From assembly GCF_000474945.1 (NCBI RefSeq), contig NZ_AXDW01000004.1, forward strand, positions 1-64,000: a DNA stretch of 64,000 nt, given 5' to 3'. The DNA is from Solimonas soli DSM 21787. Its GTDB lineage: Bacteria > Pseudomonadota > Gammaproteobacteria > Nevskiales > Nevskiaceae. Positions 31,939-44,168 of this stretch are shown piece by piece. Every line of letters begins with the position of its first letter. Position 1 is the stretch's first letter. The notes under the pieces were generated by a model. It saw nothing but the letters and a program-made list of their open reading frames with translations, had not been told where the DNA came from and searched no databases. A program made the translations under genes and the position numbers.

Positions 31939-32094
31939 GAAACGAGCACACGCCGCTGTGGCCGAAGTCGCCGATGCAATCTGCGTGTTGCGCGGTATCG
32001 ATGCATTGCCGAAGATAACCCCGATGGGGCCGTAGACCCGGCAAGAGAGGGCACGGAGCAAGCATCAACCAGAAACGCAGGGTGAGACGGGACA

Positions 32095-35000
32095 ATGTCC
32101 GAGCAGTTCTTCGAGAGGCCGATCCTCAACTCCCCCTACGAATACCCGTCGCGCCACTGGGAACTGGATGCCACCGGACAGCCCACGCAGCTGATCAAGG
32201 AGAGCCGGCGTCCCGCCGAATTCATCACGCCGATCCCGAAGCCGAAGAAGCGCAAGGGTGGCGGCGATCAGGCCGCGCTTCAGTTCGATGATGGCAAGGG
32301 CCTGTCTTCCAAAGAGCAGCAGTACGCCCACACCGCGATCATCAACGGTGTCCGCCAGGAGGTGGACCGCTGGCGGCGGATTCCGAACCCTGCCGACTGG
32401 CGCGTCACCCCGGAGACCGCGCGCCTCCTTCAGCACTGGCGGAGCCACCCGTTCAGCAGCATCCGGCCATTTTTCTGTCAGGTGGAAGCCGTGGAGACGG
32501 CCATCTGGCTGACGGAAGTCGCACCGCAGATCGGCAAGAACGGCGAGCGCTTCCTGGAACATCTGGCCAACGCCAACCGCGATGCCAACCCGGAGTTGAT
32601 GCGCCTCGCGCTCAAGCTCGCGACCGGCGCCGGCAAGACCACGGTCATGGCGATGCTGATCGCGTGGCAGACCATCAACGCCGTGCGCCGTCCGACCAGC
32701 AAGCGATTCACCCGCGGCTTTCTGATTGTCACGCCGGGCCTGACGATCCGGGATCGCCTGCGCGTCCTGCAGCCCAACGATCCGGACAGCTACTACGCCA
32801 GCCGCGAACTGATCCCGAGCGATCTGATCCCGGACCTGGAACGCGCCAAGATCGTCATCACCAACTACCACGCCTTCAAGCTGCGCGAACGCATGGAGCT
32901 GTCCAAGGGCGGCCGCCTGCTGCTCCAGGGTCGTGGCGGCGACGAGCTGGACACTCGCGAGACCGAAGGCCAGATGCTGCAGCGGGTCATGCCGGAACTC
33001 ATGGGCATGAGCAACATCCTGGCGATCAACGACGAGGCCCACCACTGCTATCGCGAGAAGCCCCGGGATGAGGATCAGGACGACGACGCCGACCTGAAAG
33101 GTGACGAGAAAAAGGAGGCCGAGGAAAACAACGAGGCCGCGCGCCTCTGGATTTCCGGCCTGGAAGCGGTCAACCGCAAGCTCGGATTGGCGCGGGTCAT
33201 GGACCTCTCGGCGACACCTTTCTTTCTCAGTGGCTCGGGCTATGCGGAGGGCACGCTGTTCCCCTGGACCATGAGCGACTTCTCGCTGATGGATGCCATC
33301 GAGTGCGGCATCGTCAAGCTGCCGCGCGTGCCCGTGGCCGACAACCTGCCCGGCACGCAGCCGGGCGACATGCCGATGTTCCGCAACTTGTGGGAGCACA
33401 TCCGCAAGGACATGCCCAAGAGCGGGCGTGGCAAGGGATCGAAGCTCGATCCGCTCAAGCTGCCGGCGCCGCTTATCACGGCACTGGAAGCGCTGTACGG
33501 GCACTACAAGCAAACGTTCGATCTCTGGCAGCAGGCCAAGATCAATGTGCCGCCCTGCTTCATCATCGTCTGCCAGAACACCGCCATCTCGAAGCTCGTT
33601 TATGACTTCATCTCCGGCTTCGAGCGAGATAACGGTGACGGCACCACATCGTTCGAGAACGGCCGTCTGGAGTTGTTCCGAAACTTTGACGAGCACGGCA
33701 ACCCGCTGGGCCGCCCCAAAACGCTGCTCATCGACAGCGAGCAACTGGAATCCGGCGAGGCGCTGGACGATAACTTCCGCGCGCTGGCCGCGCTGGAAAT
33801 AGACCGCTTCCGCCGCGAGATCATCGAGCGCACGGGCGATCTCCACGCCGCCGACAACATCACCGATCAGGACCTCCTGCGCGAGGTGATGAACACCGTC
33901 GGCAAGCACGGCCGCCTGGGCGAGTCGATCCGCTGTGTGGTCTCGGTCTCGATGCTGACGGAAGGCTGGGACACCAACACCGTGACCCATGTTCTCGGCA
34001 TCCGCGCCTTCGGCACGCAGCTGCTCTGCGAGCAGGTCATCGGCCGCGCGCTGCGCCGCCAGTCTTATGACCTGAACGAAGACACCAAGCTCTTCAATGT
34101 CGAGTACGCCGACGTGCTCGGCATCCCCTTCGACTTCACCGCCAAGCCTGCTGTGGCGCCGCCGCAGAAGCCGCGCGAAACCATTCAGGTCAAGGCCGTG
34201 CGGCCGGAGCGCGACCACCTGGAAATCCGCTTCCCGCGTGTGCAGGGCTATCGCGTGGAGATGCAGGACGAGCAGCTGACGGCTGAGTTCAACGAAGACT
34301 CGATTCTGGAACTGACGCCCGATCTGGTCGGCGCCACGGAAACCCGCAACTCCGGAATCATCGGCGAGACGGTCGATCTCACGCTGGCCCACACCGGCGA
34401 CGTGCGCCCGTCGCAGATCGTCTACGAACTGACCTCGCATCTGATCCTCGCCAAGTACCGCGATCCGGGCGAGGCGCCCAAGCTGCACCTCTTCGGCCAG
34501 CTCAAGCGCATCGCGCGGCAATGGCTGGACCAGTGCCTGGTCTGCAAGGGCGGCACCTACCCGGCGCAGCTCAAATACAAGTCGCTGGCCGACATGGCCT
34601 GCGAGCGCATCATCGCCGGCATCAACCGCTCGCTGGTCGGCACCAAGCCGATCAAGGCCGTGCTCGATCCGTACAACCCCACCGGCTCCACGCGGCACGT
34701 CAGCTTCAACACCTCCAAGACGGATCGCTACGAAACCAGCGGCCCGCCGCCCAAGAGCCATATCAACTGGGTGATCCTGGACAGCGACTGGGAGGCGGAA
34801 TTCTGCCGCGTCGCCGAAAAACACCCCCGCGTCCGTGCCTACGTGAAGAACCACAACCTGGGCCTGGAAGTGCCGTACCGCTACGGCTCGGAAACGCGCA
34901 TCTACCGCCCGGACTTCATCGTGCAGATCGATGACGGCCACGCCGATCCCCTGAACCTGATCGTGGAGATCAAGGGCTTCCGCCGGGAAGACACCAAGGA

Positions 35001-35193
35001 GAAGAAGGCCACGATGGACGTGTACTGGGTCCCCGGCGTCAACAACCTGAAGAGCTACGGCCGCTGGGCCTTCGCCGAGTTCGGCGATGTCTGGCAGCTC
35101 GACACCGACTTCACGGCCAAGGTGGAGGCCGAGTTCGAAAAGATGCTGGCTGCCAGTGCCCCGGCCGCCGAACCCGTCGCATCAGCGGCCTGA
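32095..35193 (+). CDS. Type III-like restriction enzyme, SF2 helicase plus PD-(D/E)xK nuclease
   Basis: A 1032-residue DNA translocase-nuclease, the restriction subunit of a Type III-like system; I recall such proteins being named the BPTD_3080 family. Walker A is ATGAGKT (176-182) and the DEAD-type motif is NDEAH (312-316). Helicase C-terminal motifs include 'MLTEGWDTNTVTHVLGIRAF' and 'QVIGRALRR'. The nuclease end has D940 in 'YRPDFIV' and E958-I-K960 in 'VEIKGF'. It opens the accessory island; its partner methyltransferase is two genes downstream with a Fic gene between. ATG 32095 gives a plausible N-terminus. Confidence 0.88.
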   Translation: MSEQFFERPILNSPYEYPSRHWELDATGQPTQLIKESRRPAEFITPIPKPKKRKGGGDQAALQFDDGKGLSSKEQQYAHTAIINGVRQEVDRWRRIPNPADWRVTPETARLLQHWRSHPFSSIRPFFCQVEAVETAIWLTEVAPQIGKNGERFLEHLANANRDANPELMRLALKLATGAGKTTVMAMLIAWQTINAVRRPTSKRFTRGFLIVTPGLTIRDRLRVLQPNDPDSYYASRELIPSDLIPDLERAKIVITNYHAFKLRERMELSKGGRLLLQGRGGDELDTRETEGQMLQRVMPELMGMSNILAINDEAHHCYREKPRDEDQDDDADLKGDEKKEAEENNEAARLWISGLEAVNRKLGLARVMDLSATPFFLSGSGYAEGTLFPWTMSDFSLMDAIECGIVKLPRVPVADNLPGTQPGDMPMFRNLWEHIRKDMPKSGRGKGSKLDPLKLPAPLITALEALYGHYKQTFDLWQQAKINVPPCFIIVCQNTAISKLVYDFISGFERDNGDGTTSFENGRLELFRNFDEHGNPLGRPKTLLIDSEQLESGEALDDNFRALAALEIDRFRREIIERTGDLHAADNITDQDLLREVMNTVGKHGRLGESIRCVVSVSMLTEGWDTNTVTHVLGIRAFGTQLLCEQVIGRALRRQSYDLNEDTKLFNVEYADVLGIPFDFTAKPAVAPPQKPRETIQVKAVRPERDHLEIRFPRVQGYRVEMQDEQLTAEFNEDSILELTPDLVGATETRNSGIIGETVDLTLAHTGDVRPSQIVYELTSHLILAKYRDPGEAPKLHLFGQLKRIARQWLDQCLVCKGGTYPAQLKYKSLADMACERIIAGINRSLVGTKPIKAVLDPYNPTGSTRHVSFNTSKTDRYETSGPPPKSHINWVILDSDWEAEFCRVAEKHPRVRAYVKNHNLGLEVPYRYGSETRIYRPDFIVQIDDGHADPLNLIVEIKGFRREDTKEKKATMDVYWVPGVNNLKSYGRWAFAEFGDVWQLDTDFTAKVEAEFEKMLAASAPAAEPVASAA

Positions 35194-35194
35194 A

Positions 35195-35247
35195 TCTATA
35201 CACGTTCTGTGTGACGTGTATAGAAAACAGGCAATATCTATACACGT
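35195..35247 (+). promoter_or_regulatory. triple TCTATACACGT operator upstream of fic
   Basis: Three copies of the 11-mer TCTATACACGT fill the 75-base gap between the restriction gene and fic. Copy 1 (35195-35205) and an inverted copy (35214-35224) form a perfect 11-bp palindrome with an 8-base spacer. A third, direct copy is at 35237-35247, 42 bases from copy 1, about four helical turns. TATAGA (35219-35224) and TATACA (35239-35244) inside the repeats could serve as -10 boxes. The likely reader is the winged-helix end of the adjacent Fic protein, but this is inference. Confidence 0.65.
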
Positions 35248-35268
35248 CCCCCGCCTGAAGCACACAAA

Positions 35269-36363
35269 ATGAGCATTTTGTCGCCGCCCCCGCAGCTCGC
35301 ACAGGCCGTCAGCCCGGCCCGGTTCGAGACGCCGGCCGTGCTCAAGAAGCTGGTTGCCGCCAACCGCCAGCTGGCGGAACTCAAGGGCGTGGCCGCCTCG
35401 ATCCCGAATCAAGGCATCCTGATCAGCACCCTCGGCTTGCAGGAGGCCAAGGAAAGCTCGGCGATCGAGAACATCGTCACCACCCATGACGAGCTGTTCC
35501 GGGAAAACACCCCGGATTCGCCCGGCAGCGCGGCGGCAAAGGAAGTGCGGCAGTACGAGCACGCCCTTCAGATCGGCTACGCGGCCGTCCGCCAGACCGG
35601 CCTGCTGACCGGCAATCACATCCTGGAGATTCAGGCGGCACTGGAACAGAGCCGCCCGGGCTATCGCAAGCTGCCCGGCACCACGCTCAAGGACGGCACC
35701 GGCCGCGTCATCTACACGCCGCCGTCGCCGGAGTTATTGCCGGACCTGATGAGCGACCTCGAACGCTTCATCAATGACGCCGCGCTGTTCGATGCCGACC
35801 CGCTGGTGAAGATGGCGCTGATCCACCACCAGTTCGAAAGCATCCACCCGTTCTACGACGGCAACGGCCGCACCGGCCGCATCATCAACGTGCTGTACCT
35901 CGTCAAGGAAAAGCACCTGGACATCCCGGTGCTTTATCTCAGCCGCGCCATCGTGCGCACCAAGGCGGATTACTACAGCAAGCTGCAAGCCGTGCGCGAG
36001 CGCGATGCCTGGGAAGACTGGGTGTTGTACATGCTCGATGCGGTCGAGACGACGGCCGCCGAAGGCATCACCACCATTCAGGACATCAAGGCCCTGTTGC
36101 TGGACTACAAGCACCGCATCCGCGCCAAGCACCGCTTCTACAGTCAGGACCTCATCAACAACCTGTTCTCGTTTCCGTACACCAAGATCGAGTTCATCCA
36201 GCATGACCTCAAGGTCTCTCGCCTGACGGCGACGCGTTACTTGGATGCGCTGGCCGCCGACGGCCTGCTGCGCAAGCGCAAGCTCGGCCGCAGTAACTAC
36301 TACATCAACGAACCCCTGTTCCGCATTCTCACGGGAGAAGCGCCGCCCACGGGCGAGCAGTGA
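35269..36363 (+). CDS. Fic family protein with inhibitory motif and winged-helix C-terminus
   Basis: A 364-residue Fic-domain protein, predicted to transfer AMP or another nucleotide to a protein target. The active-site motif HPFYDGNGRTGR is complete at 193-204. The autoinhibitory motif S63-S-A-I-E67-N68 is in the N-terminal part, so activity should be self-restrained. The C-terminal 80 residues ('IEFIQHDLKVSRLTATRYLDALAADGLL') look like a winged helix-turn-helix, suggesting DNA binding, perhaps at the three TCTATACACGT repeats just upstream. It lies inside the restriction-modification pair and stops 1 base before the methyltransferase ATG. Confidence 0.88.
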   Translation: MSILSPPPQLAQAVSPARFETPAVLKKLVAANRQLAELKGVAASIPNQGILISTLGLQEAKESSAIENIVTTHDELFRENTPDSPGSAAAKEVRQYEHALQIGYAAVRQTGLLTGNHILEIQAALEQSRPGYRKLPGTTLKDGTGRVIYTPPSPELLPDLMSDLERFINDAALFDADPLVKMALIHHQFESIHPFYDGNGRTGRIINVLYLVKEKHLDIPVLYLSRAIVRTKADYYSKLQAVRERDAWEDWVLYMLDAVETTAAEGITTIQDIKALLLDYKHRIRAKHRFYSQDLINNLFSFPYTKIEFIQHDLKVSRLTATRYLDALAADGLLRKRKLGRSNYYINEPLFRILTGEAPPTGEQ

Positions 36364-36364
36364 A

Positions 36365-39133
36365 ATGGCAAAAAAAGAAAAAGCACCGCTCAAGGTGGAA
36401 GCCCTCAAGCACGAGGACGCCACGCGCAAGAACATCCCCACCGCCGAACACCAGTCGGTGATGGATGAAAAGACCAAGACGCCCATCCGCGTCGCCTACG
36501 AGCGCCGCAACAAAGACCTTGATCCGCAATTGGTCTGGCGCGGCAAGGACGAACAGGATTGGTCCGATCTCGTCGTACATGCACCGCCGCTGTATATCCA
36601 AGAGAAGGTGCATCCCAAGGCGCTGATCGACGATCTGCGCAAGCAGAGCGAAGCGGGCGCGCAGCAGCAGGCCGGCGGCATGGCGGACCTGTTCGCAGAC
36701 TTCAACGGCGTGCCGGATGGCGCGAAGACCGACTTCTACCAGCACGATGCGCACTGGTCGAATCGCATGATCCTCGGCGACAGCCTGCAGGTGATGGCCT
36801 CACTGGCCGAGCGCGAGGGCCTGCGCGGACAAGTGCAGTGCATCTACTTCGATCCGCCCTACGGAATCAAATTCAACAGCAACTTTCAGTGGTCGACGAC
36901 CAGCCGCGATGTGAAGGATGGCAGCGCCGAGCACATCACGCGCGAGCCGGAACAGGTCAAGGCCTTCCGCGACACCTGGCGCGACGGCATTCATTCCTAC
37001 CTGACCTACCTTCGCGACCGGCTGACGGTGGCGCGGGATTTGTTGACGGACTCAGGCTCGATCTTTGTGCAGATCGGGGATGAGAACGTACACCGTGTGC
37101 GGGCGGTTATGGATGAGGTGTTTGGGGAAGACAACTTCATCGGCTTAATCTGGTTCCGCAAGAAGACGATGCCCCTCGGAGCAACCTATCTGGAGCGGAT
37201 GGGGGACTACATCGTCTGGTTCGGGAAGAACACCAAAAACACCAAGTTCAGGCGGCTATTCAAGGAAATCGATATTCAAGGCGATTTTCATTGGAATTGG
37301 CGTCAAGTTGACGGAACAACTCGAAAGAAATTCTCCAAAAGCGAGCTAGAGCAGAACCCTGCCGGCGACCCTTTGCGATTGGTTTCGATGTGGCCTCCGT
37401 CTTTTAGTGCAAAAGATGTATACGGCCTACCTTTCCAAGGTAGGACTTGGCCTCCCGCTCCCGGTCAGTGTTATCCATCGGGAATGGAGAAGTTGGAACG
37501 AGTGGCAAAGGCTGATCGTTTTGAGATCGAGGGCAACTATCTTCGCTACGTAATGAAGCTGTCTGATGACAACACTACGAAACTAAATCTCACTTGGACG
37601 GATACCACCGGCGCTCGCGATCAGCGATACGTAGTCGAAACGAATGAGTTTGTAGTTCAGCGTTGCATTCTGATGGCAACCGATCCCGGCGACTTAGTGC
37701 TCGACCCCACCTGCGGTTCCGGCACCACCGCCTACGTCGCCGAACAATGGGGACGCCGCTGGATCACCATCGACACCTCGCGCGTCGCGCTCGCGCTGGC
37801 CCGCGCCCGCATCATGGGCGCGCGCTATCCCTACTACCTGCTGGCCGACAGTCCGGAAGGACAGTTGAAGGAGGCGGAAATCACCCGCACCGCGCCGGCC
37901 GCCAAGCCCACGCGCGGCAGCGTGCGGCAAGGCTTCGTCTACGAGCGCGTACCGCACATCACGCTCAAGTCCATCGCAAACAACGCTGAGATCGACGTGA
38001 TCTGGGACAAGTTCCAGAAAGTGCTGGAACCGCTGCGCGCCTCGCTGACTGCAGCGCTCGGCAAGAAGTGGGAGGAATGGGAGATTCCGCGCGAGACCGA
38101 CGCCAAGTGGCCGGACGCCGCCAAGAAGGCGCACGCCGACTGGTGGCAGCAGCGCATTGCCCGCCAGAAAGAGATCGACGCCTCCATCGCTGCCAAGGCG
38201 GATTCCGAATATCTCTACGACAAGCCCTACGAGGACAAGAAGCGCGTCCGCGTCGCCGGCCCGTTCACCGTGGAAAGCCTGTCGCCGCACCGCGTGCTGG
38301 CCGTCGATGAGAACGACAACCTGATCGACAAGCTCGCCGAGCCAGAACCGGACTACGGCAAGCCCCGCGACTTCGTCTCCATCATCCTCGACAACCTCAA
38401 GACTGCGGGCGTGCAGCAGGCGCACAAAGAAAATCGCATCAGCTTCACCAGCCTCACGCCCTGGCCCGGTGACCTGATCTGTGCCGATGCGCGCTATCAG
38501 GAAGGCGAAACCGAAAAGCGCGCCGCCATCTTCATCGGTCCCGAGTTCGGCACCGTCTCACGCCCGGACCTCGTCGCGGCCGCCCGCGAAGCCGCCGACG
38601 CCGGCTTCGACGTGCTGATCGCCTGCGCCTTCTCTTACGATGCCCATTCCACGGAATTCGAAAAGCTCGGCCGCATCCTCGTGCTCAAAGCGCGCATGAA
38701 CGCCGACCTGCACATGGCCGAAGACCTCAAGAACACCGGCAAGGGCAACCTATTCGTGATCTTCGGCGAGCCGGACATCGACATCCTGCCGGCAGAGAAG
38801 GACCAGATTCGCGTCAAGGTCAACGGTGTGGATGTCTTCCATCCCCAGACCGGCGAAGTCCGCAGCGACGGCGCCGACGGTATCGCCTGCTGGTTCATCG
38901 ATACCGACTACAACGAAGAAAGCTTCTTCGTCCGCCACGCCTACTTTCTCGGCGCCAACGACCCCTACAAATCGCTGAAGACCACCCTGAAGGCCGAAAT
39001 CAACGAAGACGCCTGGGCCACGCTCAACAGCGATACCTCACGGCCATTTGATAAGCCGAAGAGCGGGCGGATCGCAGTCAAGGTTATCAATCATCTCGGG
39101 GATGAGGTCATGAAGGTGTTCAGAGTGGCATGA
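36365..39133 (+). CDS. site-specific DNA methyltransferase, Type III Mod-like (beta class)
   Basis: A 922-residue N6-adenine or N4-cytosine DNA methyltransferase. The catalytic motif DPPY is at 163-166 and the SAM-binding motif DPTCGSGTT at 447-455, the beta-class order of Type III Mod proteins. The region between (about residues 256-442, bases 37130-37690) is the target recognition part and has clearly lower GC (about 52% in sampled lines) than either flank. The C-terminal 450 residues extend well beyond a usual Mod and may contact the restriction subunit. It protects host DNA from the nuclease encoded at 32095-35193. Confidence 0.88.
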   Translation: MAKKEKAPLKVEALKHEDATRKNIPTAEHQSVMDEKTKTPIRVAYERRNKDLDPQLVWRGKDEQDWSDLVVHAPPLYIQEKVHPKALIDDLRKQSEAGAQQQAGGMADLFADFNGVPDGAKTDFYQHDAHWSNRMILGDSLQVMASLAEREGLRGQVQCIYFDPPYGIKFNSNFQWSTTSRDVKDGSAEHITREPEQVKAFRDTWRDGIHSYLTYLRDRLTVARDLLTDSGSIFVQIGDENVHRVRAVMDEVFGEDNFIGLIWFRKKTMPLGATYLERMGDYIVWFGKNTKNTKFRRLFKEIDIQGDFHWNWRQVDGTTRKKFSKSELEQNPAGDPLRLVSMWPPSFSAKDVYGLPFQGRTWPPAPGQCYPSGMEKLERVAKADRFEIEGNYLRYVMKLSDDNTTKLNLTWTDTTGARDQRYVVETNEFVVQRCILMATDPGDLVLDPTCGSGTTAYVAEQWGRRWITIDTSRVALALARARIMGARYPYYLLADSPEGQLKEAEITRTAPAAKPTRGSVRQGFVYERVPHITLKSIANNAEIDVIWDKFQKVLEPLRASLTAALGKKWEEWEIPRETDAKWPDAAKKAHADWWQQRIARQKEIDASIAAKADSEYLYDKPYEDKKRVRVAGPFTVESLSPHRVLAVDENDNLIDKLAEPEPDYGKPRDFVSIILDNLKTAGVQQAHKENRISFTSLTPWPGDLICADARYQEGETEKRAAIFIGPEFGTVSRPDLVAAAREAADAGFDVLIACAFSYDAHSTEFEKLGRILVLKARMNADLHMAEDLKNTGKGNLFVIFGEPDIDILPAEKDQIRVKVNGVDVFHPQTGEVRSDGADGIACWFIDTDYNEESFFVRHAYFLGANDPYKSLKTTLKAEINEDAWATLNSDTSRPFDKPKSGRIAVKVINHLGDEVMKVFRVA

Positions 39134-39161
39134 TGCGACGGTCCTGAGAGATCAGCGCTTG

Positions 39162-40310
39162 ATGACTCGTGTTTCTGTCAATCCCATGATGTTGCGCTGG
39201 GCGCGCGAACGCTCCGGCAGGGACATGGCTGACCTGATGATCCAGTTTCCGAAACTGCCGGAATGGGAACAACAGGCGCGGCAGCCAACCCTGAAGCAGC
39301 TGGAACAGTATGCGCGCGCGACTTACACGCCCATCGGCTATTTGTTTCTTCTCGAGCCCATCGTCGAATCCGTCCCCATACCGGATTTTCGGACCTTCGC
39401 GGATCGCGGGGTCCGGCGCCCCAGCCCGAACCTGCTGGACACGGTCTATTTGTGCCAGCAGCGCCAGGAGTGGTATCGCGAGTACGCCCAGGAGCAAGGC
39501 CTGCAGCCGGCGGACTTCGTCGGCTCCATGCGTCTGGACACACCGATCGAACAGGCTGCGACGAGAATCCGCCAGTGGCTCGGTTTCGATCTGGCTGCGC
39601 GGCGCAGTTGTGCGACTTGGGAGGATGCACTGCGGCAATTCATCAGCCAGGCGGATTCCGCGGGGGTGATGGTCATGTGCAGCGGAGTTGTGGGCAGTAA
39701 CAATCGCCGATCGCTCGATCCGTCCGAGTTCCGAGGGTTTGCGCTTTCTGACCGCCTGGCGCCGCTGGTGTTCATCAATGGCAGCGATACCAAGTCTGCG
39801 CAGATGTTCACGCTTGCGCATGAAATTGCGCATCTGTGGGTGGGTCAGACGGCCCTATCCAATGCCGACGTTTCCGGTGACGATACGAACGAGCTTGAAA
39901 GCTGGTGTAACCGCGTCGCGGCGGAGTTGCTGGTGCCGCTGGACTCGCTGCGGGGCGAACTGCACGCAGATGAGGAGTTGGGCCAGCGAACCAAGCGGCT
40001 CGCGCGGACTTTCAAGGTCAGCACTCTTGTCGTATTGCGTCGCCTGCTGGATGTCGGCGTGATTCGTCGAGAGGATTTCTGGCCGATCTATCAGGCCGAA
40101 GTTGAACGCCTGCTCGCTCTGCAGGGTGCCGGTTCGGGCGGGAACTTCTACCTTTCGCAGGCTGCGCGTGTCAGCAAGCGATTCGCGCGGGCGCTGGTCG
40201 AGAGCGCGCTTGAGGGACGGACGCTGTACCGCGATGCCATGCGCATGGTGGGCGTCGCCAAGGTGGAGACGCTTCACGAGCTGGGTCGCAGCGTAGGAGT
40301 TCTGATCTGA
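39162..40310 (+). CDS. ImmA/IrrE family metallo-endopeptidase with HTH-like N-terminus
   Basis: A 382-residue zinc peptidase-type regulator. The metal site HEIAH is at 220-224, and the N-terminal part ('LRWARERSGRDMADLM') resembles an XRE helix-turn-helix. ImmA/IrrE proteins often cleave repressors or antitoxins to relieve repression. ATG 39162 is used; a TTG three bases upstream is an alternative. Its stop overlaps the ATG of the PIN-like gene (TGATG), so the two are coupled, a pairing I recall as common for DUF4411 genes and suggestive of an antitoxin-toxin unit. Confidence 0.85.
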   Translation: MTRVSVNPMMLRWARERSGRDMADLMIQFPKLPEWEQQARQPTLKQLEQYARATYTPIGYLFLLEPIVESVPIPDFRTFADRGVRRPSPNLLDTVYLCQQRQEWYREYAQEQGLQPADFVGSMRLDTPIEQAATRIRQWLGFDLAARRSCATWEDALRQFISQADSAGVMVMCSGVVGSNNRRSLDPSEFRGFALSDRLAPLVFINGSDTKSAQMFTLAHEIAHLWVGQTALSNADVSGDDTNELESWCNRVAAELLVPLDSLRGELHADEELGQRTKRLARTFKVSTLVVLRRLLDVGVIRREDFWPIYQAEVERLLALQGAGSGGNFYLSQAARVSKRFARALVESALEGRTLYRDAMRMVGVAKVETLHELGRSVGVLI

Positions 40311-40816
40311 TGGCCTACCTGCTCGACGCCAACGTCTTCATTCAAGCCAACCGGTTTCACTACGGGTTCGACATCTGCCCCGGTTTCTGGGAATGGGTTG
40401 AGGTCCGAGCGGGGCAAGGATCGGTGCTGAGCGTTGCGCAGGTCGGGCGCGAGCTGCAAGCGGGCAATGACCGTCTTGCCGACTGGGCGGGAGAGCGAGA
40501 CACCCGGTTCTTTCTGGAGCCGGACGCTGCAAGCCTGCAGTCGATGGTCGCTGTTTCGCAATGGGTTCTACAGCAAGGCTACGAACCCGCAGCAGTCAAC
40601 ACCTTTCTCCAGGTGGCCGACTACTTCCTCGTGGCTACAGCTCACGCTCACAGTCACACTGTCGTGACGCACGAGCGTCCGCAGGCCAATGCGGTTCGTC
40701 GGGTCATGATTCCCAATGCCTGCGTGGGGATGGGAGTCCGGTTCATGAATCCTTTCGAGATGCTGCGCGTAGAACGTGCGAGCTTTGTTCTGGCACAGGC
40801 TGAGCGCAACCGATAG
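40310..40816 (+). CDS. DUF4411 family PIN-like protein
   Basis: A 168-residue PIN-fold protein, a probable metal-dependent RNase toxin. The N-terminal 'MAYLLDANVFIQANR' places the first PIN acidic residue at D6. Further acidic residues follow at 'GRELQAGND' and 'VADYFLVATA', and the C-terminal 'VVTHERP' fits the DUF4411 pattern. It is translationally coupled to the upstream ImmA/IrrE gene, which would then be the antitoxin or regulator. The helicase gene starts 8 bases downstream. Confidence 0.8.
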   Translation: MAYLLDANVFIQANRFHYGFDICPGFWEWVEVRAGQGSVLSVAQVGRELQAGNDRLADWAGERDTRFFLEPDAASLQSMVAVSQWVLQQGYEPAAVNTFLQVADYFLVATAHAHSHTVVTHERPQANAVRRVMIPNACVGMGVRFMNPFEMLRVERASFVLAQAERNR

Positions 40817-40824
40817 CCACTACC

Positions 40825-42909
40825 GTGAACTTCCGCATTGCCGACACCTTTACCGGCAGCCTCGCGCGCCTGACTGGCGAGGAACAGAAAGCGGTTAAAA
40901 CCACCGCATTCGACCTGCAGATAGATCCGGCCCAGCCAGGGATGAGCTTCCACAAGCTCGATCGCGCCAAGGACAAGAACTTCTGGTCTGTCCGCGTCAG
41001 CAGCGACATCCGGATCATTGTTCATAAAACGGATTCCAGCCTGCTGCTCTGCTACGTCGACCACCACGACAAGGCTTATCAATGGGCCGAACGCAGGAAG
41101 CTGGAGACACATCCTGCGACCGGCGCTGCGCAGCTGGTCGAGATTCGGGAGCGTGTGCAGGAAGTCGTCATTCCGAAGTATGTGGAGATTCACGAGCCTG
41201 CGCCGACGCGTGCCGTAACGGCGACTAAGCCACCGCTGTTTGCGAATCGAACGGATGCGGAACTTCTCTCTTATGGTGTTCCAGAGGAATGGCTTCCGGA
41301 TGTTCGCGCGGCTGACGAGGATAGCCTTCTGATGCTGGCGGATCATCTGCCGGGGGAGGCGGCCGAAGCGCTCCTTGAGCTGGCAGTCGGTGGTATGCCT
41401 AAGGTCGCGACGGCAAAGGTCGCCGATCCATTCGAGCATCCGGACGCGCAACGTCGCTTCCGCGTGATGAAGGACGTGGAAGAGCTGGAACGCGCTCTGG
41501 CCTTCCCCTGGGAGAAGTGGACTACCTTCCTGCATCCTGCGCAGCGGCAATGGGTGGAGCGGGAATACACTGGCCCGGCCCGCATCGCCGGGTCGGCTGG
41601 CACGGGCAAGACCATTGTCGCTCTGCATCGCGCCGTGTTCCTTGCGCGCAGTCAGCCGGAATGTCGGGTGCTGTTGACGACGTTTTCGGAGACTCTTGCG
41701 AATGCGCTGAGGACCAAGCTCCGTCGCCTGATCGGCAGCGAGCCGCGGCTTGGCGAAAGGATTGATGTCCATTCGATCGATGCCATCGCATCGCGGCTAT
41801 TCGAGAAGCATATTGGCAAGCTGAAGTTGGCTGATGAAGGCGTGGTCAAAAGCGGCATGCAGGCGGCGATGGCTGCTGGTGATTCGGGCAAGTTCACAAT
41901 CGGTTTCTTGCTGTCGGAATGGACCGATCTGGTTGATGCATGGCAGCTCGACAGTTGGGAGGCGTACCGTGACATCAAGCGCCTGGGGCGCAAGACGAGG
42001 CTGTCGGAGGCGCAGCGCAACACCTTATGGACGCTGTTTGGCGCCGTGCGCAAGCAATTGGCAGCGGATGGATACACGACTCGATCAGGCATGTTCACCG
42101 CTTTGGCTGAAAAGCTGAAAGGGCTTGCGCAAAGGCCATTCGATTTCATCGTTGTTGATGAGGCGCAGGACCTTGGCGTTGCTCAGCTACGCTTCCTCGC
42201 CGCGCTCTGTGAAGGCGGTCCCAACAGTCTGTTCTTCGCCGGCGACCTTGGTCAGCGAATCTTCCAGCAGCCGTTCTCATGGAAGGCGCTGGGTGTGGAT
42301 ATTCGGGGGCGGTCGCGGACTTTGCACATCAACTACCGGACTTCCCATCAGATCAGGGCACAGGCGGATCGGCTGCTCGGCCCAGAGATTTCGGATGTCG
42401 ATGGCAACACAGAAGAGCGCAAAGGCACGATCTCGGTCTTTAACGGACCGGTGCCGGAGGTTGGCACTTTCGATTCCGTGTCAGCGGAAGCGGCGGCGGC
42501 TTCTGCGTGGATCAAAGAGCGTCAGGCCGAGGGCTACCTGCCTCATGAGCTAGGGGCATTCGTGCGCTCAGGCGCTGAACTATCACGCGCCATCGCAGCG
42601 GTTGCGGCCGCCGGTCTTCCATACAAGGTCCTGGATGATGGCGTCGAGACGATTGCTGGCCATGTCTCCATCGGCACGATGCACCTCGCCAAAGGGCTCG
42701 AATTCCGCGGCGTCGCGGTCCTGGCGTGCGACGATGAGGTGATTCCGCTTCAAAGTCGCATCGACGGCATCGGTGATGAGGCCGACCTCGAAGAGGTTTA
42801 CAGCACTGAGCGTCATTTGCTCTACGTCGCTTGTACCCGCGCACGTGATCGCCTGTTCGTCAGCGGCGTCGGTCCGGCGTCGGAATTTCTGGACGACCTG
42901 TTGGCGTAG
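40825..42909 (+). CDS. RelE-like domain fused to UvrD/Rep-type SF1 helicase
   Basis: A 694-residue fusion. The first 90 residues ('FHKLDRAKDKNFWSVRVSSDIRIIVHKT') look like a RelE/ParE toxin fold. After a linker comes a complete SF1 helicase with Walker A GSAGTGKT (256-263), Walker B DEAQD (445-449), 'RTLHINYRTSHQIR' and 'STERHLLYVACTRARDRL'. Only some UvrD-like proteins carry such a domain, and they occur in defence islands. It starts at GTG 40825, 8 bases after the PIN gene, and ends 29 bases before the convergent sufS stop, marking the right edge of the island. Function in phage defence is inferred. Confidence 0.85.
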   Translation: MNFRIADTFTGSLARLTGEEQKAVKTTAFDLQIDPAQPGMSFHKLDRAKDKNFWSVRVSSDIRIIVHKTDSSLLLCYVDHHDKAYQWAERRKLETHPATGAAQLVEIRERVQEVVIPKYVEIHEPAPTRAVTATKPPLFANRTDAELLSYGVPEEWLPDVRAADEDSLLMLADHLPGEAAEALLELAVGGMPKVATAKVADPFEHPDAQRRFRVMKDVEELERALAFPWEKWTTFLHPAQRQWVEREYTGPARIAGSAGTGKTIVALHRAVFLARSQPECRVLLTTFSETLANALRTKLRRLIGSEPRLGERIDVHSIDAIASRLFEKHIGKLKLADEGVVKSGMQAAMAAGDSGKFTIGFLLSEWTDLVDAWQLDSWEAYRDIKRLGRKTRLSEAQRNTLWTLFGAVRKQLAADGYTTRSGMFTALAEKLKGLAQRPFDFIVVDEAQDLGVAQLRFLAALCEGGPNSLFFAGDLGQRIFQQPFSWKALGVDIRGRSRTLHINYRTSHQIRAQADRLLGPEISDVDGNTEERKGTISVFNGPVPEVGTFDSVSAEAAAASAWIKERQAEGYLPHELGAFVRSGAELSRAIAAVAAAGLPYKVLDDGVETIAGHVSIGTMHLAKGLEFRGVAVLACDDEVIPLQSRIDGIGDEADLEEVYSTERHLLYVACTRARDRLFVSGVGPASEFLDDLLA

Positions 42910-42938
42910 CTGCAAAGGGAGCTGCTAGGCCTCCGCCA

Positions 42939-44168
42939 TTACGCGAACAGCCGTGCGACTTTCTGCAGTGCCGCGAGCAGCTGGTCGATGTCGTCCTCGC
43001 CGTTGTAGACCGCCAGCGAGGCGCGCGCCGTCGCCGGCACCTGGAAGCGCTCCATCAGCGGCATCGTGCAGTGATGGCCGGTGCGGATCGCGACGCCTTC
43101 CATGTCGAGGACCGAGCCGATGTCCTGCGGATGCGCCTTGTCCATCACGAACGACAGGATGCCGGCCTTGTGCGGCGCGGTGCCGATGATGCGCAGGCCC
43201 GGCACTTCGGCGAGGCGCCGCGTGCCGTATTCGAGCAGCGCATGCTCGTGCGCGGCGACCGCGTCGAGGCCGATATCGTCCAGCCAGTCGATCGCCGCGG
43301 CGCAGCCGATCGCGCCCGCCATGTCCGGCGTGCCCGCTTCGAACTTGTACGGCACCTCGTTCCAGGTGCTGCCGGAAAACGCGACGGTGCGGATCATGTC
43401 GCCGCCGCCCTGCCAGGGCGGCATCGCTTCGAGATGCGCGCGCTTGGCGTACAGTGCGCCGAAGCCGGTCGGCCCGTAGAGCTTGTGCGCCGAGAACGCG
43501 TAGAAGTCGACGTCGAGCGCCTTCACATCGACCGGCAGATGGGCGATGCCCTGCGCGCCATCGACCAGCACCGGAATGCCGCGCGCATGCGCCTCACGAA
43601 TGATGTCGGCGACCGGATTGATCGTGCCCAGCGAATTCGAGACCTGCGCGACGGCGACCAGCTTCGTGCGCGGGCCCAGCAGTTTCTTCCAGGCGTCGAG
43701 ATCGAGCGAGCCGTCGTCGAGCACCGGCGCCGCGACGGTTTTCGCGCCGGCGAGCTGCCAGGGCACGATGTCGGAATGATGTTCCATGCCGGTGACGAGC
43801 ACCTCGTCGCCGGGCTGCAGGCGCGGCTGCAGGAAGCTGCGCGCGACCAGATTGATGCTCTCCGTCGTGCCGCGCGTGAAGACGATTTCCTCGCGGCTCG
43901 CCTTGATGAAGGCGGCGATGCGATCGCGCGCACCCTCGTAGGCGGTGGTCGCGCGCTCGGCGAGCTCGTGCACGGCGCGGTGCACGTTGGCGTTCTGGTG
44001 GCGGTAGTAGTAGTCGATGGCCCGCAGCATCGCTTCGGGCTTCTGTGTGGTCGCCGCGTTGTCGAGATAGGCGAGGCGCTTGCCGCGCACCTTCTCCTGC
44101 AGGATGGGGAACTGCGCGCGGATCGCCGCGAGATCGAGCGGCTTCGCCGCGGACGCGACGGCGCTCAT
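42939..44168 (-). CDS. sufS: cysteine desulfurase SufS
   Basis: PLP enzyme that takes sulphur from cysteine for iron-sulphur cluster assembly by the SUF system. The 409-residue protein has the PLP lysine K229 in 'AFSAHKLYGPTG' and the catalytic C367 in 'IRTGHHCTMP', as in type II desulfurases, which need a SufE or SufU partner. The ATG at 44168 overlaps the sufD stop (ATGA). It is the last gene of the visible suf operon; no sufE, sufU, sufA or sufT follows, because the accessory island begins immediately downstream on the other strand. Confidence 0.97.
   Translation of the reverse strand: MSAVASAAKPLDLAAIRAQFPILQEKVRGKRLAYLDNAATTQKPEAMLRAIDYYYRHQNANVHRAVHELAERATTAYEGARDRIAAFIKASREEIVFTRGTTESINLVARSFLQPRLQPGDEVLVTGMEHHSDIVPWQLAGAKTVAAPVLDDGSLDLDAWKKLLGPRTKLVAVAQVSNSLGTINPVADIIREAHARGIPVLVDGAQGIAHLPVDVKALDVDFYAFSAHKLYGPTGFGALYAKRAHLEAMPPWQGGGDMIRTVAFSGSTWNEVPYKFEAGTPDMAGAIGCAAAIDWLDDIGLDAVAAHEHALLEYGTRRLAEVPGLRIIGTAPHKAGILSFVMDKAHPQDIGSVLDMEGVAIRTGHHCTMPLMERFQVPATARASLAVYNGEDDIDQLLAALQKVARLFA

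Follow-up and report, generated by a model that had tools for sequence, protein, structure and literature searches.

Classical type III restriction-modification (RM) systems are encoded in the order mod-res and cleave DNA 25-27 bp from paired head-to-head sites. The embedding of defence genes in restriction loci is known. According to the accessible parts of the reports cited here, a second defence gene lies inside type I restriction operons in the cases of PrrC in EcoprrI, TgvAB and DarTG2 (PMC3710099, PMC11411939, PMC12255303), Fic/DOC genes have been noted in loci that also encode restriction proteins and RloC-like proteins (PMC3710099), BREX loci carry embedded nucleases (PMC12839542), and defence genes are embedded inside the loci of Hma (PMC11411939, PMC12111858), a three-gene carrier made up of a helicase, an m5C methylase (PMC8565338) and an ATPase. 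The locus described here comes from Solimonas soli DSM 21787 and lies in a window of 64,000 nucleotides (the whole stretch that was analysed, positions 1 to 64,000 of contig NZ_AXDW01000004.1), where six + strand genes at 32095-42909 were all confirmed. The explanation preferred for this locus, with a probability of roughly 0.6, is a mobile RM platform in which three core genes, a restriction endonuclease (Res), a DNA methyltransferase (Mod) and a RelE-UvrD helicase (Hel), are combined with two variable slots filled by second-layer defence modules.

The comparison with the described systems reveals both likeness and difference. PrrC, TgvAB and DarTG2 reside in type I hosts, whereas the family found in the window is another kind of system with many cargo families in two separate slots. 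Hma resembles the window in being a three-gene carrier with embedded defence genes, but its methylase forms m5C whereas the Mod of the window belongs to the N6/N4 beta class, and no HmaA, HmaB or HmaC model is among the matches listed for Res, for Mod (best 25 of 41) or for Hel (best 25 of 40). The window shares with classical type III RM an SF2-PD-(D/E)xK Res and a beta-class Mod, but differs from it in the res-mod order, in the extra helicase gene and in a Res that scores far below the type III cut-offs. In the partly accessible literature that was searched, no description of the third gene or of the two-slot layout of this family was found, and the name BPTD_3080 occurs in none of the papers searched. 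A preprint (doi 10.1101/2024.01.29.577857) that deals with genes embedded in immune systems, known through citing papers, may list some of the cargo or the locus itself.

Three probable core genes and two slots

Res, Mod and Hel behave as three core genes in a fixed order. Among 398 sampled genomes of the phylum, a Res above its family cut-off is present in 27 and a Hel relative (E <= 1e-100) in 20; the two occur together in 18 (the S. soli genome included), with Hel only in 2 and Res only in 9 (Fisher 1.3e-22). Both genes lie on one contig in 16 of the 17 other genomes that possess them, the remaining one (G018) having them on different contigs, and in all 16 of these loci the order is Res-Mod-Hel on one strand. 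A larger set of 117 locus rows (L-numbers below) consists of 29 from the same phylum draw (L002-L030), the best 80 of at least 574 relatives, 7 of the 37 plasmid records that gave a match, and the window. Longer stretches of the loci in L002-L030 (L210-L225) come from the same draw, and the rows that represent the window itself (L001 and L148) were left out of the relative counts. A Hel frame was called after Mod in 44 loci of the larger set, some of which hold Hel only in part.

The two intervals between the core genes are variable. Slot 1, between Res and Mod, was measurable in 94 of the 117 loci and is shorter than 200 bp in 30 (at most 21 bp in 24 of them) and 286-3372 bp long in the other 64. 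Slot 2, between Mod and Hel, was measurable in 44 loci, at most 101 bp in 7 and at least 308 bp in 37. Among the 16 longer phylum stretches, 13 have a slot 1 of at least 403 bp and 3 one of at most 85 bp; their slot 2 measures at least 229 bp in 13 cases and at most 177 bp in 3. Reading frames within the slots, called by a custom codon-score script, lie on the operon strand in 73 of 73 and 51 of 53 cases. Outside the locus the strands are mixed, with the first gene upstream of Res on the + strand in 75 of 106 loci and that downstream of Hel in 16 of 29. Cargo is also closely packed, since 29 cargo starts and 38 cargo ends in 57 slots with called cargo are within 20 bp of Res or Mod.

Most cargo clusters prefer one slot or the other. 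The 147 slot proteins of at least 60 aa form 82 clusters, 29 of them with two or more members, and 27 of these 29 are confined to a single slot, against 10.7 expected (0 of 2000 shuffles), a figure that near copies inflate. The clusters found in both slots are the AlbA-type and M78 clusters; in L094 the M78-PIN pair lies in slot 1, whereas the window and L070 have it in slot 2. The platform reading is thus supported because 18 of the 20 Hel genomes carry Res, the order is fixed in 16 of 16 loci, the slots are variously occupied, clusters mostly keep to one slot, and relatives of known stand-alone systems are found among the cargo.

The assignment of Res to the BPTD_3080 family comes from a match that spans residues 6-1009 and exceeds the curated cut-off of 800 bits. 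It contains the SF2 motifs GAGKT, DEAH, SAT and QVIGRALR and a C-terminal PD-x-ExK, and passes the broader PF04851 ResIII domain (31.1, cut-off 22.5). It falls under the type III cut-offs, with 17.5 bits against NF012027 (cut-off 564) and 21.7 against PF19778 (cut-off 23.4), and reaches only E 5.2e-5 against PADLOC REase_III. The best start of Mod is an ATG that gives 922 aa, and its motifs follow the beta order, which together with its PDLC03632 match makes it a beta-class Mod of the type III family; a fold model of its C-terminal 440 residues (pLDDT 53.5) was not used. The N-terminus of Hel is, on the evidence of its fold model (117 residues, built from 24 sequences, pLDDT 87.7), a RelE-like fold. 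This model has 34 PDB matches at E <= 1e-3, led by YoeB, RelE and YafQ; most are RelE/YoeB/YafQ/ParE toxins, and the rest include entries from Helicobacter and a complex that carries no name other than toxin-antitoxin. Against the HigB-like toxin HMM the Hel N-terminus of the window reaches 22.1 bits (E 2.1e-4), below the cut-off of 27, and that of L112 reaches 27.9 bits, above it. Catalytic motifs are intact in the island proteins.

A sequence-only reading of this DNA had already recognized a restriction-modification pair, a class II Fic gene between its members with an operator in front, a peptidase-PIN pair and a RelE-fused SF1 helicase, all within a lower-GC island between core genes, and these identifications are upheld here (Table 1). 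Its description of the pair as type III-like holds for the beta-class Mod, but not for the scores of Res or for gene order: the window and all 16 phylum loci have res before mod, and only two distant loci have the mod-res order. The same reading treated the RelE helicase as a separate add-on and the whole as a fic-split type III-like pair with two unrelated pairs. The association of Hel with Res and the Res-Mod-Hel order contradict this division, and the unit is better drawn as three core genes and two slots.

The Solimonas island and the cargo of the slots

The six genes of the window are one acquired island, with a GC content of 0.615 against 0.701 and 0.686 in the flanks. The corresponding empty site is seen in 2 of 4 congener regions, where about 117 bp (L181) and 41 bp (L184) separate the flanking genes, and the approximate bounds of the island follow from this near-adjacency; in the other two regions (L182, L183) the upstream flank alone was matched within the 10 kb examined. 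At one of the empty sites (L181:6187-6440) part of the upstream flank's end is repeated in tandem. Of 14 families of direct repeats none has one copy at each island end, and a promoter scan of the island returned no sigma-70-like site. For the M78 peptidase an ATG start was preferred to the listed TTG at 39159.

Table 1. Features of the S. soli island, in coordinates of the window
Feature	Position	Strand	Basis
Acquired island, about 11 kb, between an upstream + strand core gene and a sufS-like gene	31940..42941 (ends approximate)	+	flanks nearly adjacent in L181, L184; GC contrast
Core gene 1: Res, BPTD_3080 family restriction endonuclease (SF2 helicase + PD-(D/E)xK)	32095..35193	+	NF046055 1372.6 bits; motifs
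Beginning of slot 1: intergenic segment with the operator upstream of fic	35194..35268	+	
Triple operator TATACA-14-TGTATA-16-TATACA	35197..35244	+	0 mismatches; 0/200 shuffles reach it
Slot 1 cargo: SoFic-like class II Fic adenylyltransferase with C-terminal SoFic-like_C domain	35269..36363	+	PADLOC SoFic 384 bits; Fic_N, Fic, SoFic-like_C
Core gene 2: Mod, beta-class N6/N4 DNA methyltransferase	36365..39133	+	PADLOC MTase_III PDLC03632 1402 bits; DPPY then DPTCGSG
Slot 2 cargo: M78 (ImmA/IrrE-like) peptidase	39186..40310	+	PF06114 3.6e-15; HEIAH
Slot 2 cargo: DUF4411 protein, taken here to be PIN-like	40310..40816	+	PF14367 7e-52
Core gene 3: Hel, RelE-like domain (fold model) fused to UvrD-type SF1 helicase	40825..42909	+	UvrD 4.9e-18; RelE fold; co-occurs with Res

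Across the measurable loci, slot 1 holds Fic proteins in 10 of 94 (11 if L068, where fic follows a mod remnant, is counted). Its cargo further includes 8 DinD-like, 7 AlbA-type (with one more in slot 2), 7 NYN, 6 BRO-N, 5 PD-(D/E)XK and 4 VapC PIN proteins. The names DinD-like, NYN, BRO and AlbA derive from Pfam and PADLOC tallies together with a reading of the sequences. Slot 2 contains AAA/SMC ATPases, SIR2, TIR, a subtilase with AAA, DarT with a macro domain, M78 and DUF4411. Individual proteins of this slot match SIR2 (L045), HerA (L053), DarT and DarG (L064), ThsB (L041) and IetS (L036), and the partner genes of the SIR2 and HerA loci cluster together. Matches to the HEC-01A/B models of the Hma-embedded candidates also occur in slot 2, a further likeness to Hma. 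The slot 2 frames of L041 (14886-17642), one of which is the ThsB match, resemble a Thoeris system, and the Pfam tally for this slot includes two ThsB_TIR members and one SLOG cluster3 member.

A Res tree of 94 rows, on which changes of cargo label were compared with shuffled labels, shows that some of the cargo in slot 1 turns over. Fic (10 changes in 10 rows, 9.7 in shuffles), DinD-like (8 in 8, 7.8), AlbA (5 in 5, 4.9), BRO-N (5 in 6, 5.9) and the empty state (25 in 30, 25.6) are all distributed nearly as in the shuffles.

Two plasmids show related arrangements. On a Methylomagnum plasmid (L116:12675-15075) a patatin phospholipase and a SMODS nucleotidyltransferase, which are parts of CBASS, directly follow mod, and no Hel was seen in L116. 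On a Rhodococcus plasmid (L117:1258-3174) a 638-aa Fic family protein is encoded upstream of res, outside the slots. Thirty loci of classical type III systems were also read by eye, with 1.5 kb flanks that leave mod outside the view in several, and no count is claimed from them. In two of these (L138, L141) a DinD-like C-terminus and a RhuM-like frame, both named by eye, adjoin the classical type III Res. Embedding is thus not confined to the BPTD_3080 family.

The SoFic-like protein and its operator

The Fic protein in slot 1 of the window has the same Fic_N, Fic and SoFic-like_C domains as SoFic, the class II Fic of Shewanella and E. coli (PDB 3eqx, 3zcn, 9vjc), but differs from it in lying between res and mod. 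It contains HPFYDGNGRTGR as well as SSAIEN, the inhibitory motif of class II, and joins Fic_N, HPFxDGNGRxGR and SoFic-like_C in the manner of SoFic. Its best PDB relative is 9vjc (E 1.8e-75), and its score against the NCBIfam SoFic model, 338.2 bits with a cut-off of 550, makes it a family relative and not an equivalog by NCBI's rule. The accessible part of one report states that the C-terminal domain of SoFic is needed for toxicity and that in E. coli the SoFic gene is followed downstream by AS1, a small antitoxin gene (PMC12249575). In the window there is no room for an AS1-type gene, because mod starts 1 bp after fic. A search of E. coli genomes with the fic DNA gave no match. The S. soli genome encodes a second, short Fic-domain gene (G000:C6:253986-254222).

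The operator upstream of fic consists of the half-sites TATACA, TGTATA and TATACA, 20 and 22 bp apart from start to start, and is the single match in its own genome when up to two mismatches are allowed. In relatives, scanned with spacings of 19-21 and 20-23 bp and at most two mismatches in 18, the triple is conserved in 6 of 8 slot SoFics (L077 and L098 lack it) and in 8 of 20 free ones, in each case with 0 of 200 shuffles as good. Because slot and free-standing SoFics both carry it, the operator travels with SoFic, and the idea that it is a property of the restriction locus was rejected. Three more distant slot Fics (L039, L063, L103) are without the triple, and a TGTTAA/TTAACA variant was seen by eye at four free SoFics that belong to a different clade. 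Autorepression by a Fic protein has an experimental precedent in CccR of Yersinia, a toxin that likewise combines a class II Fic with a C-terminal DNA-binding helix-turn-helix (HTH) domain and has inverted repeats in its own promoter, as are also present before the fic of the window; CccR differs in operator sequence and spacing and in being a secreted effector, and the accessible part of the report describes no restriction genes alongside it (PMC9755527).

A res-fic-mod order, whose conservation across distant genomes the sequence-only reading proposed to test, does recur (10 of 94 loci) and is therefore not something almost never seen, but fic is a minority load and is absent from the slots of all 16 longer phylum loci, a sample that overlaps the first set. 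Fic as a fixed part of the res-mod pair was rejected on the same count. SoFic relatives (E <= 1e-60) occur in 24 of the 398 genomes, the S. soli genome included. None of 24 SoFic places other than the window has a BPTD_3080-family Res or a same-strand Mod within 1.5 kb on each side, some of these stretches being cut by contig ends, and one (L150) has a 26% methylase-like match on the opposite strand. Of these 24 places, 19 entered one tree, 18 the other and 20 the operator test. On a tree of 8 slot SoFics (L068 included) and 18 free ones only 2 changes separate the two states, against 7.0 in shuffles; a single slot clade is not rejected (p-AU 0.24) and is seen in 19% of bootstrap trees. Repeated capture of SoFic from the free pool is thus not supported, with the free and slot sets coming from different collections.

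In most SoFic loci fic lies close to mod. The gap between them is 1-24 bp in 7 of 8 SoFic loci (window 1, L049 3, L055 5, L065 24, L068 2, L077 4, L098 1), and L071 has a 487-aa repetitive frame in this place. In the seven SoFic loci where fic directly follows res, the gap after res is 49-218 bp. In L068 (6252-10667) a truncated 5' piece of mod (284 bp, 86.6% identical to the mod that follows) precedes fic, which is followed by mod in two called frames; this mod remnant is likely the trace of an exchange of a fic-mod cassette.

Alternative explanations and significance

Under the platform reading Mod would mark self DNA and Res, perhaps with the helicase, would destroy unmarked DNA, as their families suggest. 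By analogy with described Fic proteins, SoFic would limit its own expression by binding to the operator and would be held inactive by the inhibitory helix; an infection that broke this control could lead to AMPylation of host targets and a stop of growth. The PIN nuclease may be restrained by its peptidase partner. The cargo is accordingly regarded here as autonomous back-up modules that share a carrier, and probably a transcript, with the RM genes, and not as fixed machine parts.

Several observations weigh against this interpretation. Of the 56 loci in which Mod is followed by a Hel frame or by 4.1 kb or more of sequence, 12 gave no called Hel frame, two of these 12 (L044, L052) showing Hel pieces by tblastn, and 9 of 27 Res genomes lack Hel at E 1e-100. 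The distant L023 and L025, over the cut-off with a Res 33% and 32% identical to that of the window, have mod before res, and the set of 80 relatives leans to close ones. On the Res tree NYN (3 changes in 6 rows), PD-(D/E)XK (3 in 5) and VapC (3 in 4) are clustered, and all slot 1 labels together need 50 changes against 58.7 in shuffles, with 0 of 200 as low. By these change counts, part of the cargo tracks the Res lineage, whereas the rest, including Fic, does not. The slot preference and the nearly slot-restricted SoFic lineage hint at some coupling with the core.

One form of coupling would be that the cargo stands guard over the restriction system, and the sequence-only reading had likewise suggested that Fic could respond if restriction is disturbed. 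As PrrC does inside EcoprrI (PMC3710099, PMC12707154, in their accessible parts), SoFic or the PIN toxin would be silenced by Res-Mod or their complex and set free by a phage anti-restriction protein. The tight packing of cargo against Res and Mod and the grouping of slot SoFics apart from free ones are both consistent with this explanation, which is nevertheless considered doubtful. The cargo families are mutually unrelated, which makes a common contact surface on Res-Mod unlikely; SoFic has its own inhibitory motif and an operator common to free-standing relatives; and 30 of 94 slots are empty. A distinctly less probable form of coupling is that SoFic, by autorepressing an operator 1.1 kb upstream of mod, sets the level of Mod as controller proteins do in type II systems; in a newly entered cell the promoter would still be open and Mod would be made first. 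The short fic-mod gaps, the room for a promoter after res in seven loci and the repression by CccR of its own promoter via inverted repeats (PMC9755527, accessible part) all fit such a role. On the other hand, the long frame of L071 intervenes between fic and mod, free SoFics have the same operator with no such mod nearby, the promoter scan was negative, most platforms are without Fic, and autorepression by SoFic is itself putative.

The opposite possibility is that there is no platform and that these genes are neighbours merely through the clustering of defence genes. Defence islands are common, and the DinD-like and RhuM-like frames beside classical type III Res are what such clustering might produce. 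This explanation is disfavoured and very improbable, in view of the recurrent order and strand of the three core genes, Res-Mod junctions of at most 21 bp in 24 of 94 loci, and cargo that prefers one slot, while the flanks outside are of mixed strand. Beyond the platform reading itself, a fuller version can be put forward only tentatively, namely that the family is a widespread and undescribed three-gene restriction class with dedicated slots, slot 1 for single-gene regulators or toxins and slot 2 for complete modules, whose cargo is swapped by recombination through res and mod, and that in members loaded with SoFic this protein both poisons the cell and controls mod via its operator.

If the platform reading is correct, an odd gene order becomes a testable rule, by which restriction systems of the BPTD_3080 type have two fixed positions for second-layer defences that can replace one another. 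The RelE-UvrD helicase would become a candidate third subunit of a restriction system, and the uncharacterised genes in the slots candidate defence genes. The SoFic operator would likewise offer a sequence-level handle on the silencing of a Fic toxin, whether free or embedded.

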